Shown here: piece by piece, positions 44,979 through 50,096 of the stretch | Layout of the letters: each line of letters begins with the position of its first letter | How positions within the stretch are numbered: position 1 is the stretch's first letter | DNA from: Phycisphaera sp. | GTDB lineage: Bacteria > Planctomycetota > Phycisphaerae > Phycisphaerales > Zrk34 | Direction of reading: 5' to 3' | Assembly (NCBI GenBank): GCA_016125285.1 | Contig: WGMA01000020.1 | Span: forward strand, 62,001 to 126,000 | Length of the DNA stretch: 64,000 nucleotides | The notes under the pieces: generated by a model | Databases searched by the model: none | Told to the model about the DNA's origin: nothing | What the model saw: the letters and a program-made list of their open reading frames with translations, nothing else | Position numbers and translations under genes: made by a program

Positions 44979-45830
44979 CTACTCGCCCGGGATGTAGCTG
45001 ATCACGCCGCTCCACGGGCTCGACGCGGTGGCGTAGAGACGCTTGGGGATGCGGCCGGACAGGTAAGACAGGCGACCAGCCAGGCACGCGTGACGCATGG
45101 CGTGCGCCATCTTCACCGCGTCCTTCGCGTGGGCGATGCCGGTGTTGAGCAGCACGCCATCCGCGCCCAGTTCCATGGCGATCGTCACGTCGCTCGCCGC
45201 GCCGACGCCCGCGTCAACGATCACCGGGTACTCCGCGTCGCCGTCCTTGAGCAGCTCGAGGATGATGCGGATGTTGTTGGGATTCAGCACGCCCTGGCCC
45301 GAGCCGATCGGCGATCCGGCGGGCATCACGGTCGTCGCGCCCGCCTCCTTGATCTTCACCGCCATGATCGGGTCGTCCGACGTGTAACACAGCACGCTGA
45401 ACCCGTCGGCGACGAGCTCGCGCGTGGCCTCCAGCGTGCCCTGCGGGTCGGGCAGCAGCGTCTTCTTGTCGCCGAGCACCTCGAGCTTGACCCAGTCCTT
45501 GCCGGGGTTGTCGAGCTGGTCGAGCAGCTCCCGTCCGAGGCGCGCCACACGCACGGCGTCTTCCGCGTTGAAGCAGCCCGCGGTGTTCGGCAGGATCGTA
45601 TAGCGGTCGGTGTCGATGAAATCGAGCAGCGACTCGCCCTTGTCGTTGATCAGCCGCTCGCGGCGCACCGCGACGGTGATCACCTCCGACCCGCTGGCGT
45701 CGAGCGCGGCCTGCATGATCGGGTACGTCTCGTACTTGCCGGTTCCGACGATCAGCCGCGACGTCAGCGTGCGGGCGCCGAGCTGCAGCGGCTTGTCGAG
45801 CGGTTCGTTTGTCGTCTTCGCATCAGTCAT
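44979..45830 (-). CDS. thiG: Thiazole synthase
   Basis: TIM-barrel enzyme forming the thiazole of thiamine from deoxyxylulose-5-phosphate, dehydroglycine or iminoglycine, and ThiS-thiocarboxylate. The 283-residue protein shows [122 protein letters not shown], all in ThiG order. ATG 45830 with GGTGAG seven bases upstream is preferred to an upstream in-frame GTG 45842. thiS lies 65 bases upstream on the same strand. ThiG is usually ~255-265 residues; the extra length is at the C-terminus ([20 protein letters not shown]). Confidence 0.97.
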
Positions 45831-45895
45831 GTTTCGTCTCACCGTTTAGCGACGCCCCGCAGGGGCGTGCGTCACCTGTCACTTGTTCCTTGCCT

Positions 45896-46099
45896 TCATC
45901 CCCCGCCAACCAGCGTCACGACCTCAACCACGTCGCCGTCGTTCAGCGTCGTCGTCGCGTGCTCGCGTTTCGGGGCCAGCCGCTTGTTGACCTCCACGGC
46001 CACGGCCTGCTTTTCCAGCCCCAGCTCGCGCACGAGGTCCGCGACGGTGGCCTCACCGCCGGGCATCTCATACGCATCGCCGTTCAGCGTCAGCTTCAT
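45896..46099 (-). CDS. thiS: Sulfur carrier protein ThiS
   Basis: A 67-residue ubiquitin-fold sulfur carrier. It begins MKLTLNGDAYEMPGGEATVADLV, has EKQAVAVEVNKRLAPKREH and DGDVVEVVTLVGGG, ending in the di-glycine tail that is adenylated and thiocarboxylated before delivering sulfur to ThiG. ATG 46099 is chosen since the -10 TATGAT lies only nine bases upstream, so longer readings would start before the transcript. It lies directly upstream of thiG in the same direction and downstream of tilS. ThiF and ThiH partners are not in the window. Confidence 0.93.
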   Translation of the reverse strand: MKLTLNGDAYEMPGGEATVADLVRELGLEKQAVAVEVNKRLAPKREHATTTLNDGDVVEVVTLVGGG

Positions 46100-46108
46100 A
46101 ATCCGCCA

Positions 46109-46114
46109 ATCATA
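46109..46114 (-). promoter_or_regulatory. -10 TATGAT close to the thiS start
   Basis: Minus-strand TATGAT with nine bases to ATG 46099, implying a leader of only about three bases. It lies between the stop of tilS and thiS. Confidence 0.35.
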
Positions 46115-46161
46115 CAGGCATTCACGGGGGTTTTCACAGCGGCCGATCGCGGGGGCGTCGA

Positions 46162-47175
46162 TCACCGCGGCGTGATGCGGATCGCGTCGAACGTGACCTC
46201 GATCCGCACGCCGGCCAGGTCGAACACGCGTGTCTCGCCGTTGTCGCTTACCGCCGCCTCAACGACCGGCGACAGCGTGTGCGTGGCGAGCTGATCGCTG
46301 GGCGAGCCGCGATCGAGGCACACACGTCGCAGCACCGCGGCGAGCAGGGCGGCGGGCGTCTGGCGTGCCGCGGTTCGGTCGATCACGACGCCGTCAGATG
46401 TCTCCGTCGTGAGCCGCGCCGCGTGTCGGCGCGCGGCAGCGTCAAAGACGCGTGACGCTTCCCGCAGGCGGTCCGCCGTGTCCGTCGCCTTCTTCGCCGC
46501 GTCGGGCCGCAGGTCGCGGAGCACCGGCAGCACGTCGGCACGCAGCCGCGCCCGCCAGCGTGACACGTCGGCGTTCGTCGGGTCTTCACGCCAGGGCTGG
46601 TCGATCTCGTTCAGCAGCGCCACCGCCTCGTCGTGCGTCACGCGCAGCATCGGGCGGACCAGCGTCGCGTCGCAGCCCTTCGTACGCCGTCGCCACGCGA
46701 TGCCCGACATGCCGCGCGCCGACGCGCCGCGCACGATCCGCATCAGCAGCGTCTCGAGCTGATCGTCGGCGTGATGCGCCGTGGCGATGCGGTCCGCGTC
46801 GACCTCCGCCGCGACCTCCGCCAGCGCCGCGTAGCGCATCCGTCGCGCGTTCTGCTCGACGTTGCCCACCGCGCCGCCCGGCCTGATGTCACGCACGTGC
46901 AGCGGAAGCGACAGCGCCTCGGCCAGCTCACGCACGAACGCCGCGTCGGCGTCCGCGTCGTCACGCAGGTCGTGGTTGACGTGGCACACGTGCAGGTCGA
47001 GCGACCATTCCTTGCGACCCGCCAGCGCCGCCATCGCCCGCAGCAACGCCACCGAGTCGGCCCCGCCGCTGACCGCCACGAGCACGCGGTCGCCCGGCTC
47101 CACCCCGCAGCGATCGCGCAGCGACTCGGCGATCTGGCGGACAAACGGGTGGCGATGCAGCATGTCGATTATCAT
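46162..47175 (-). CDS. tilS: tRNA(Ile)-lysidine synthase
   Basis: ATP-dependent enzyme converting C34 of the CAU-anticodon tRNA-Ile to lysidine so that it reads AUA. The 337-residue form shows the PP-loop VLVAVSGGADSVALL, the HVCHVNHDLRDDADADAAFV segment, EQNARRMRYAAL, RIATAHHADDQLETLLMRIVRGA and the PWREDPTNAD substrate region; the C-terminal domain is short, as in small bacterial TilS. ATG 47175 has GGGTGA about five bases upstream; ATG 47163 and ATG 47187 are alternatives. If 47187 is used, its start codon overlaps that of the divergent larC-like gene in a shared CATG. Confidence 0.93.
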   Translation of the reverse strand: MIIDMLHRHPFVRQIAESLRDRCGVEPGDRVLVAVSGGADSVALLRAMAALAGRKEWSLDLHVCHVNHDLRDDADADAAFVRELAEALSLPLHVRDIRPGGAVGNVEQNARRMRYAALAEVAAEVDADRIATAHHADDQLETLLMRIVRGASARGMSGIAWRRRTKGCDATLVRPMLRVTHDEAVALLNEIDQPWREDPTNADVSRWRARLRADVLPVLRDLRPDAAKKATDTADRLREASRVFDAAARRHAARLTTETSDGVVIDRTAARQTPAALLAAVLRRVCLDRGSPSDQLATHTLSPVVEAAVSDNGETRVFDLAGVRIEVTFDAIRITPR

Positions 47176-47185
47176 AACGTCACCC

Positions 47186-47647
47186 ATGGATCAGCCCCCC
47201 ACACAGGTCGTTGAGATCGCCTGCAACCTGGACGACGCGTCCGGCGAGGTCGTCGGCGCGGCGATCGACACGCTGCTGGAAGCCGGGGCGCTCGACGCGT
47301 GGGTCACGCCGATCACGATGAAGAAGCACCGGCCCGGCGTCACGCTCAGCGTGCTGTGCGAATCCGGGCTGATGGACACGATGGCCCGCCTCGTGATCGA
47401 GCTGACCGGCACGTTCGGCGTCCGTTACCGCGACTGGTCGCGCGTCGTGCTCGATCGGCGGCACGAGACGGTTACCACGCGCTACGGCGACTTGCGGATC
47501 AAGGTCGGGTCGATGCACGGCAAGGTGATCCTCGCCAAGCCGGAGTACGACGACGTCGCGGCCGCGGCGGAGCGGCACGGCGTGAGCGTGCGGCGTGTGA
47601 TGGATGCGGCCCGCGCCGCGGCGGACGCGTGGCTCGCGAGGCGTTAA
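47186..47647 (+). CDS. larC: Stand-alone LarC C-terminal domain (nickel insertion protein)
   Basis: A 153-residue protein that corresponds only to the C-terminal half of LarC, the CTP-dependent cyclometallase that inserts nickel into the pincer cofactor of lactate racemase and relatives. The matching segments are VEIACNLDDASGEVVGAAIDTLLEAGALDAWVTPITMKKHRPGVTLSVLCE (read in parts), IELTGTFGVRYRDWSRVVLDR, RYGDLRIKVGSMHGKVILAKPEYDDVAAAAE. The N-terminal LarC1 part is not upstream, where tilS lies on the other strand. In some Firmicutes LarC is made from two frames by a programmed shift; here the domain begins with its own ATG 47186. Whether it works with a LarC1 elsewhere is unknown. Confidence 0.85.
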   Translation: MDQPPTQVVEIACNLDDASGEVVGAAIDTLLEAGALDAWVTPITMKKHRPGVTLSVLCESGLMDTMARLVIELTGTFGVRYRDWSRVVLDRRHETVTTRYGDLRIKVGSMHGKVILAKPEYDDVAAAAERHGVSVRRVMDAARAAADAWLARR

Positions 47648-47679: not shown

Positions 47680-48543
47680 TCAGTCGGGCCATTCGCCGCT
47701 GAACACCTCGGTCGCGGGGCCCGTCATGTAGACACGCTTGTCGGACTCGCGCCACTCGAGCGTCAGGTCGCCGCCGGGCAGGTGCGCGAGGATCCTGCGG
47801 TCGGTCTTGCCGGTCAGCACGCCCGCGACGCACACCGCCGACGCGCCCGTGCCGCACGCCAGCGTGATGCCGCTGCCGCGCTCCCACGTCCGCATCGTCA
47901 CCTCGCCGCGGCTGTGTACCTGCACAAAGTGCACGTTGATGCGTCGAGGGAACCACGGGTGATTCTCGATCACCGGCCCGATCGTAGCGAGCGGTATCGC
48001 CTGTACGTCGTCGACGAAGAATGTCACGTGGGGATTGCCCATCGACACGCACGTCATCGCGGGGTCCGGCAGGTCGATGCCGCCCTCGAACGGGTGACCG
48101 ATGACGCGGTCGACGTCGCCGACGCCGGGGATCTTCACGGGGATCTTCGCCGCCTCGATGATCGGCTCGCCCATGTCGACGGTCGCCATCGCGAGCCTGC
48201 CGTTGCCGTTGGTCGTGAAATCGATCGTCAGCACGCCGTTGCCGGTCTGCACGCGCATGGGCTTGGCGTCGGTCAGGCCGTGGTCGTGGGCGTACTTGGC
48301 GACGCAGCGGACGCCGTTGCCGCACATCTCCGACTCGGACCCGTCGGCGTTGAACATGCGCATGCGGACGTGCGCGTCGACGCCTTGCTCGGGCGGCAGC
48401 ACGAGGATCAGCCCGTCGCCGCCGACGCCGGTGTGGCGGTCCGCGATGACCGGCGCGAGCGACGTGGGGTCCGCGACCTTCTCGTCGAAGCCGTTGACGT
48501 AGACGTAGTCGTTGCCGATGCCGTGCATCTTGGTGAAACGCAT
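47680..48543 (-). CDS. dapF: Diaminopimelate epimerase
   Basis: PLP-independent epimerase interconverting LL- and meso-diaminopimelate for lysine and peptidoglycan synthesis. The 287-residue protein has MRFTKMHGIGNDYVYVN, RHTGVGGDGLILV, the first active-site MCGNGVRC (Cys74), PHVTFFVDDV, and the second active-site ITLACGTGASAV (Cys230). GGAGGCGACGCG precedes ATG 48543. The presence of dapF suggests a DAP-based cell wall, which fits the view that planctomycetes keep peptidoglycan. It converges with the larC-like gene and lies 31 bases after the M48 protease gene on the same strand. Confidence 0.97.
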   Translation of the reverse strand: MRFTKMHGIGNDYVYVNGFDEKVADPTSLAPVIADRHTGVGGDGLILVLPPEQGVDAHVRMRMFNADGSESEMCGNGVRCVAKYAHDHGLTDAKPMRVQTGNGVLTIDFTTNGNGRLAMATVDMGEPIIEAAKIPVKIPGVGDVDRVIGHPFEGGIDLPDPAMTCVSMGNPHVTFFVDDVQAIPLATIGPVIENHPWFPRRINVHFVQVHSRGEVTMRTWERGSGITLACGTGASAVCVAGVLTGKTDRRILAHLPGGDLTLEWRESDKRVYMTGPATEVFSGEWPD

Positions 48544-48574: not shown

Positions 48575-50005
48575 TCACATGTCGCCGGCGCCGCCGAGGA
48601 TGATCGCGGCGAGGAGCACCGCGGCGCACACCCAGCGGATGCGGCGGACCTTGCGGTCGATCGGGCAGTCGTCGACGCGCTGGCCCACGAGCGTGTCGAG
48701 GTACGCGATGCGCCACGGGATCGAGCCGTGCCGCCAGTTCATCGGCGTCATCGCCTCCCAGATCGTCGAGGGTCGCCCCAGCGGGATGTGGTTCATCTTC
48801 GCCACCTGCGTCAACGCCTCGGTGACCACGTGCACCGCCTCGGCTGTGATGACGCCCGGCGCCGCGGGGTCACCGAGCCGCTCGGTCATGTGCTGCACGG
48901 CGAACGTGTCGGCCTGCCGCTCGAAGCGGCGCGAGATGTAGCCGAACACCACCGCGAAACCCATCGTCAGCACGAAGATGATCGGCACCTGCACGTTGGG
49001 GTCCTGCTCCCAGGTCTCGGGCATCCGCCAGCCGAGCGATTCCGCGGCGAGTTGTACGCCGGAGATCGCCATCGCCACGACGCTGATCGACGCGGCGGCG
49101 CAGACCAGCATCCACGGGATGTGGCGGCGTGTGACGTGCCCGAGCTCGTGCGCCATCACCGCCTCGACGTGGTCGGGGTCCATGCGTTCGATGAGGCCGT
49201 CGGTCAGCAGGATGTAGCGGAGGCGGCCGACGATGCCCATGACCGCGCCGTTGACCATCCCGCCATGCGTGCGCCACATCAGCAGCGTGCGGACGCGCAC
49301 GTGGTACTTGCGGCACAGGTCCAGCAGGCGATTGTGCAGTTCGCTCGGCGGCAGCGGCACGGTGTCCCAGACGAAGCGGATCATCAGCGGCGCGAACATG
49401 AACACGATGATCAGCCCCGCGGCGCTGACCACGGAGTGATACGGCTCGGCCGCGACGTAGCGGTCGACGATCTGCATCCACCCCAGCAGCAACAGCAGGG
49501 GCGCCATCATCAACAGCAACTGATGGCGGACCTGCGAGGCGATGAACCGCAGGCGCGGGAAGCGGCCCTCGTCGTCGGGATGGGCGCCGCGCAGGTAGCG
49601 GTCGATCGGGTAGTACGCCGCCCACATCAGCATCAGCGCCCCGAACACCGGCGACAGCGCCAGCACGTCGTTGACGAGGATCAGGTCGCCGAGGCGGACA
49701 CGCAGCCACTCCAGCCAGCCCAGCGCGAACAGGTCGACGAGAAACATCAGGGCCAGGCCCCACTGGCAGATCGACGAGAACATCCGCAGCCGCGTGAGGA
49801 TCGGCTCGCATCGCTCGGGGCGGCGGCGGACGGCGCGGAACGCCGAGTGATAGACGATCCACGCGAACAGCGAGATCACCAGGAACGGCGCGATCGCCAG
49901 CACGGGCACCAGCCACGGCCAGGCGTCGAGGATGGGGTCGGTCTGCGGACCCATCTGGCGGTAGGCCATCAGCCCCATCATCAGGATGATCACGTAAAGC
50001 TGCAT
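48575..50005 (-). CDS. M48-family membrane metalloprotease
   Basis: A 476-residue integral membrane zinc protease. The N-terminal half has several hydrophobic helices (VIILMMGLMAY, WPWLVPVLAIAPFLVISLFAWIVY, WGLALMFLVDLFALGWL, ALSPVFGALMLMWAAYY, and LLLMMAPLLLLLGW). The catalytic motif VMAHELGHVTRRH lies at ~281-293, with the downstream ISRRFERQADTFAV Glu/Asp segment (~375) that supplies the third zinc ligand. The order fits Ste24/CAAX-type M48 proteases more than HtpX. ATG 50005 is used; GTG 50011 is an alternative. It may process or degrade membrane proteins in the cytoplasmic membrane. dapF follows by 31 bases. Confidence 0.88.
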   Translation of the reverse strand: MQLYVIILMMGLMAYRQMGPQTDPILDAWPWLVPVLAIAPFLVISLFAWIVYHSAFRAVRRRPERCEPILTRLRMFSSICQWGLALMFLVDLFALGWLEWLRVRLGDLILVNDVLALSPVFGALMLMWAAYYPIDRYLRGAHPDDEGRFPRLRFIASQVRHQLLLMMAPLLLLLGWMQIVDRYVAAEPYHSVVSAAGLIIVFMFAPLMIRFVWDTVPLPPSELHNRLLDLCRKYHVRVRTLLMWRTHGGMVNGAVMGIVGRLRYILLTDGLIERMDPDHVEAVMAHELGHVTRRHIPWMLVCAAASISVVAMAISGVQLAAESLGWRMPETWEQDPNVQVPIIFVLTMGFAVVFGYISRRFERQADTFAVQHMTERLGDPAAPGVITAEAVHVVTEALTQVAKMNHIPLGRPSTIWEAMTPMNWRHGSIPWRIAYLDTLVGQRVDDCPIDRKVRRIRWVCAAVLLAAIILGGAGDM

Positions 50006-50096
50006 AATCACACCGGGCCGGCGTGCGTCGCCGCGACCCGAAAGAATTGTACGATCGATCGGGCCCGGACATCGACCCCGCCGCCGCGCGCTGTCG

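Follow-up and report, generated by a model that had tools for sequence, protein, structure and literature searches.

LarC encoded as two unlinked genes in Phycisphaerales: a stand-alone larC2 and a remote larC1

LarC is a two-domain nickel insertase in which LarC2 holds the CTP site and LarC1 accounts for the rest, including nickel handling, a division that draws in part on the deposited LarC2 structures. The product of LarB and LarE, P2TMN, is the substrate of LarC, which carries out CTP-dependent cytidinylylation of P2TMN, nickel insertion and phosphoanhydride hydrolysis (PMC11796402, PMC9283937). The 64,000-nucleotide stretch of a Phycisphaera sp. genome analysed here (hereafter, the window) encodes the LarC2 domain alone. 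Does this gene work with a LarC1 encoded elsewhere, has it acquired a role of its own, or is it a relic?

The open reading frame encodes 153 amino acids from an ATG start. Its product covers only the last third of the Pfam Ni_insertion model (PF01969, positions 243–375 of 375; E = 5e-45) and the full NCBIfam LarC2 model (NF052512, positions 1–118 of 118; score 146 bits, cut-off 50), and on these scores both matches lie far above chance. LarC1 and LarC2 are separate NCBI models, and the LarC2 domain is therefore a recognised unit. The window LarC2 is 42–59% identical to 26 split-type relatives, and an AlphaFold model built from an alignment of these 27 proteins, its own sequence included, reached a mean pLDDT of 95.2. 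By far the top fold matches are the solved LarC2 structures of Lactiplantibacillus plantarum, 6bwo (TM 0.80 by query, E = 3e-16) and 6bwq (TM 0.75, E = 1e-16); there are weak matches to CutA1 and PII proteins (best E 3e-4 to 1e-3). Because the LarC2 model is matched in full and the predicted structure best matches solved LarC2, the domain is complete, with its own start codon, and the original prediction of a stand-alone LarC2 gene was exact to the coordinate. The ATG overlaps by two bases the longest reading of the divergent tilS, which has further in-frame ATGs.

The larC2 gene lies between a tilS, thiS and thiG group and a pair consisting of dapF and an M48 peptidase gene (Table 1), and the only other PF01969 match of the genome is on a different contig, in agreement with the earlier statement that LarC1 is absent from the neighbourhood. 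The thiS and thiG genes also occur by tilS and larC2 in three other genomes (G002, G004 and G007). Two further open frames of the window gave no Pfam match at E 0.001.

Table 1. Coordinates of the features discussed (window positions unless a genome and contig are given; G000 is the genome of the window)
Feature	Location	Strand	Evidence or remark
larC2, stand-alone C-terminal domain of LarC	47186..47647	+	PF01969, NF052512, AlphaFold model, fold match
tilS, divergent neighbour of larC2	46162..47187	-	PF01171, TIGR02432, synteny
thiS, thiG, following tilS	44979-46165	-	
dapF, neighbour	47680..48543	-	TIGR00652, synteny
M48 peptidase, neighbour	48575..50011	-	PF01435 E 6e-17, synteny
Open frame, 505 aa	41987-43504		
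Open frame, 504 aa	50097-51611		
larC1, LarC1-only gene	G000:C15:33839-34822	-	PF01969 1-234/375, E 5e-81; TIGR00299 205 bits vs cut-off 90
Two genes downstream of larB	L141:2249-4649 (G000:C16)		resemble ADP-dependent NAD(P)HX dehydratase and bioD
LarC1-only gene, other planctomycete genus	G569:C35:15894-16709		
LarC1-only gene, other planctomycete genus	G619:C7:133816-134616		
LarC1-only gene, other planctomycete genus	G669:C108:18634-19467		
LarC2-type match within a 696-aa open frame	G740:C70:12506-12907		

The genome of the window (6.1 Mb in 90 contigs, 97% complete) was searched with profiles for the remaining Lar genes. Its single other PF01969 match is a LarC1-only gene on contig C15, and larB (276 bits) and larE (299 bits), both above cut-off, lie on a third contig, C16. 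LarC1 and LarC2 are thus on different contigs, neither one chain nor adjacent frames. The suggestion that LarC2 may act with a remote LarC1 is therefore supported by genome content; the alternative suggestion, a metal-handling role of its own, gained no support from this analysis. The gene set proposed for the search was recovered in three of its parts (the LarC1-only gene, larB and larE); the fourth, larA, had no match in this genome to PF09861, the LarA N-terminal model. The opposite outcome envisaged at the start, a full-length larC elsewhere combined with decay of this gene in relatives, is not what we found: the PF01969 search returned no full-length larC in the genome, and relatives keep the gene with low dN/dS. 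Downstream of larB are two genes, one resembling an ADP-dependent NAD(P)HX dehydratase gene and the other resembling bioD.

The arrangement is widespread in the order. In a sample of the class, 100 of 198 genomes had PF01969 matches; the halves were apart in all eight such genomes from the order of the window, and in most of the other 92 the match was one full-length gene, with partial or multi-piece matches in the rest. A sample of the order gave PF01969 matches in 42 of 400 genomes, and LarC occurs as separate halves in 32 of the 42: both halves in separate places in 27 (a half being cut by a contig end in G002, G242 and G302), and one half in five, namely LarC1 in four genomes that are 70–85% complete and LarC2 in one, G329, that is 83% complete. 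The front of the long larC2 frame in G329 reads, by eye, as antisense of an opposite-strand tilS. The remaining ten genomes have fused genes, and split and fused copies were found together in none of the 42. Both halves lie on one contig (3.5–5.2 Mb) in six genomes (G149, G195, G210, G212, G218 and G224), separated by about 0.8 to 3.2 Mb in linear coordinates. Across the phylum, 286 of 392 genomes had PF01969 matches, and 21 genomes picked for low scores or several matches, many of them cut by contig ends, were rechecked. Three of three examined genomes of another planctomycete genus (90–97% complete) have LarC1-only genes and no LarC2 match; one genome (G740) has a LarC2-type match within a longer open frame and no LarC1 match.

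The split genes group together in every tree that we computed (FastTree, unrooted, SH-like supports). They fall on one side of a single branch in the concatenated tree (32 of 72 sequences, support 1.0), the LarC1 tree (30 of 70, support 1.0) and the LarC2 tree (27 of 67, support 0.92). With a wider set of sequences the split side comprised 25 of 141 (concatenated, support 0.999), 30 of 150 (LarC1, support 1.0) and 27 of 145 (LarC2, support 0.90, one outside fused sequence included). Because the split copies of the order form one clade, they probably stem from one old fission of larC. The ten fused genes of the order are a clade of their own (support 1.0, concatenated), and in the seven fused loci retrieved with longer flanking sequence larE lies beside larC every time and larB in five cases. 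The simplest reading of these trees and loci would be one old fission and a separate acquisition of a fused lar cluster.

Each half has a recurring neighbour. Of 28 split-type larC2 loci, 22 have a divergent tilS next to the gene; in two of the others the contig stops on the tilS side (G254 and G287), and four are without tilS (G149, G224, G281 and G290). Likewise, sppA is next to larC1 at 27 of 31 loci, with two cut on the sppA side (G242 and G302) and two without sppA (G002 and G007). In the family of the window, the M48 peptidase–dapF pair lies by larC2 in G000, G004 and G007; it was not seen by larC2 in G006, and in G002 the contig stops at larC2. Of the 24 larC1 loci of the sister family, 17 have the M48 gene nearby and 12 have dapF; a number of the remaining loci were retrieved with a flank of only about 1.4 kb, but G257, with a long flank, is without both. 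A pair located between the halves in one ancestor would explain both arrangements, as after an inversion that broke the larC linker; no genome with this ancestral order was seen.

Sequence conservation indicates that the halves have been retained. We took as fixed those positions that are at least 95% identical in 39–40 fused proteins, a definition by conservation and not by CTP contact. Of the 24 fixed positions of LarC2, 19 are kept by at least 90% of the 27 split proteins and five are not; LarC1 keeps 43 of 50 at the same level. One LarC1 position is aromatic in 39 of 39 fused proteins from the class and order and in 61 of 64 other fused proteins, and is V, T or I in all 30 split ones. For 13 chosen, partly saturated pairs of relatives, dN/dS was 0.105–0.46 for LarC2 (10 of 10 computed pairs) and 0.07–0.31 for LarC1 (11 of 13 pairs), and it was below 0.5 in every computable comparison; both halves look to be under purifying selection. 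Among the 32 split genomes, 26 have LarB and 27 have LarE above cut-off. LarB is below cut-off or missing in G248 (96% complete) and G287 (92%), as is LarE in G257 (95%), and G006 (91%) has both halves, yet neither LarB nor LarE above cut-off. Two sampled members of the family that are without LarC (G005 and G008) also have neither protein above cut-off. On balance, a working pathway fits these patterns best.

Some candidate marks of the split state were rejected. A histidine-rich loop (eight His in 20 residues) occurs in 25 of 29 split LarC1 proteins (median, 10 His; fragments G242 and G302 left out) versus 2 of 40 fused proteins of the class and order (median, 4). The loop is not diagnostic, since 30 of 64 other fused LarC proteins also reach eight. 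Nor is the loss of a LarC2 cysteine, which 38 of 40 fused proteins have and all 27 split ones lack: only 37 of 64 other fused ones have it. Partner co-evolution was also discarded: LarC1 and LarC2 distances correlate with rho 0.43 in 25 split genomes versus 0.51 in 30 fused proteins, for which shared descent suffices. Some split LarC1 proteins carry a His-rich tail at the C terminus, the site at which LarC2 is attached in fused proteins (L149, L143 and L147, from G078, G149 and G281), as do the Chloroflexi proteins L268 and L271.

We consider it highly probable, on comparative grounds, that larC2 of the window is one of two unlinked genes derived from an old larC fission and that its product and LarC1 function together in trans as a nickel insertase. 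The gene would have broken between its two domains to leave two unlinked genes, and LarC2, as a separate chain, would assemble with LarC1 into the usual LarC enzyme. LarC2 would contribute the CTP site and LarC1 the remainder, including nickel handling, and the pair would turn the P2TMN made by LarB and LarE into nickel-pincer nucleotide (NPN). Binding between the halves and activity of the pair are what we infer here. Four deposited entries of full-length LarC (12bi–12bl) together contain 24 chains, a count that may mean oligomers in which LarC1–LarC2 contacts form; LarC1 and LarC2 of the window's genome both match these entries by sequence.

Known LarC proteins differ from this arrangement mainly in linkage. 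The L. plantarum enzyme (6bwo, 6bwq and 6bwr) has the same two domains, and window LarC2 is 40% identical to it over 141 columns of the structural match. There, two adjacent reading frames are joined by a programmed frameshift, whereas the halves described here are separate genes on different contigs. The L. plantarum LarC locus tags are lp_0106/lp_0107 (PMC8305020). LarC of Moorella thermoacetica, which cytidinylylates P2TMN (PMC11796402), is by contrast a single fused chain. In a pattern scan of named genomes, which is not a fair sample, the best 80 loci of at least 578 relatives had LarC2 in one frame with LarC1 in 65 cases, LarC1 in a nearby separate frame in eight, and no LarC1 in the fetched flank in seven (three Phycisphaeraceae, three Chloroflexi and one Domibacillus). 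The eight loci with a nearby separate frame belong to Bacillaceae, lactobacilli, Caldicoprobacter and Verrucomicrobiota; their two frames lie close together on the same strand, unlike the unlinked halves described here, and some such pairs may be joined by frameshifting. In Anaerobutyricum the lar genes are called scattered, yet larC1 and larC2 have consecutive locus tags (PMC7702098).

The closest parallel is in Chloroflexi, in which three genomes (G915, G916 and G917) have LarC1 and LarC2 on different contigs with the same break point as the Phycisphaerales split; in G915 the end of LarC1 runs into a contig end, so that separateness there rests on the LarC2 side. Because these copies make up a separate clade (support 0.991, concatenated) whose nearest relative is a fused Anaerolineales LarC, unlinked splitting has, by this phylogeny, arisen at least twice, independently in Chloroflexi. 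MK0293 of Methanopyrus kandleri (PDB 3c19) is likewise a stand-alone LarC2-type chain, and differs in being archaeal. A literature search, for which subscription papers were mostly outside reach, found no account of unlinked larC in planctomycetes.

The LarA result extends beyond the window's genome. PF09861, a single Pfam model that a very divergent LarA could escape, had no match in nine of nine genomes of the family. Among the order's 32 split genomes it was found in 15 and had no match in 17, including two single-contig genomes of the sister family (G212 and G218) that hold LarB, LarE and both LarC halves. This absence is the more notable because Planctomycetota are listed among the phyla richest in LarA homologues (PMC11770544). 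It also counts against the proposed pair, whose product would have no known user in the window's family. A divergent LarA below the PF09861 threshold, or one in an assembly gap, may explain the lack of matches.

Could LarC2 instead have left LarC for a metal- or nucleotide-handling role of its own, such as that of a regulator that binds CTP or a metal, with LarC1 working alone or on another target? MK0293 is a precedent for a stand-alone chain, the Domibacillus genome (L198 in G918, completeness not given) has LarC2 with no LarC1 found, the LarC1-only planctomycete genus shows the converse, and the CutA1 and PII matches hint at such functions. We nevertheless regard this as unlikely: the halves occur together in 27 of 32 split-clade genomes, every exception being at most 85% complete, larB and larE usually accompany them, most positions fixed in fused LarC2 are kept, and solved LarC2 structures are by far the best fold matches.

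That larC2 is a decaying remnant of a pathway being lost in the family would suit both the lack of LarA matches there and the two members without LarC and without LarB or LarE above cut-off. However, the intact frame, the high-confidence predicted fold, the low dN/dS and the largely conserved residues make this very improbable, and G212 and G218 retain LarB, LarE and both halves while also having no LarA found. In a genome of 90 contigs one might suspect that a normal larC was broken by faulty assembly or sequencing, but this is scarcely credible when the same arrangement recurs in 27 genomes, six with both halves on one contig, and when sppA and tilS recur beside their respective halves.

The enzyme is a known one, LarC; what is unusual is its encoding by two unlinked genes. 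In the family of the window and in G212 and G218, the split nickel insertase might supply NPN to an enzyme other than LarA, and so to an undiscovered NPN protein family; we put this forward tentatively. Genomes with larB, larE and larC and without larA make up about 15% of more than 1,000 genomes in one study, from which other NPN proteins were inferred (PMC11796402). Members of this order in which the NPN pathway is retained and no larA was found, among them the single-contig G212 and G218, offer a practical starting point in the search for the non-LarA NPN protein that this study suspects.

For annotation, the lesson is that a larC gene of half length is not necessarily a pseudogene. Separate, far-apart genes can encode the two LarC domains, and a clade has kept them so. 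Nature has here taken apart an unusual organometallic enzyme into halves that can each be made, assayed and swapped alone.
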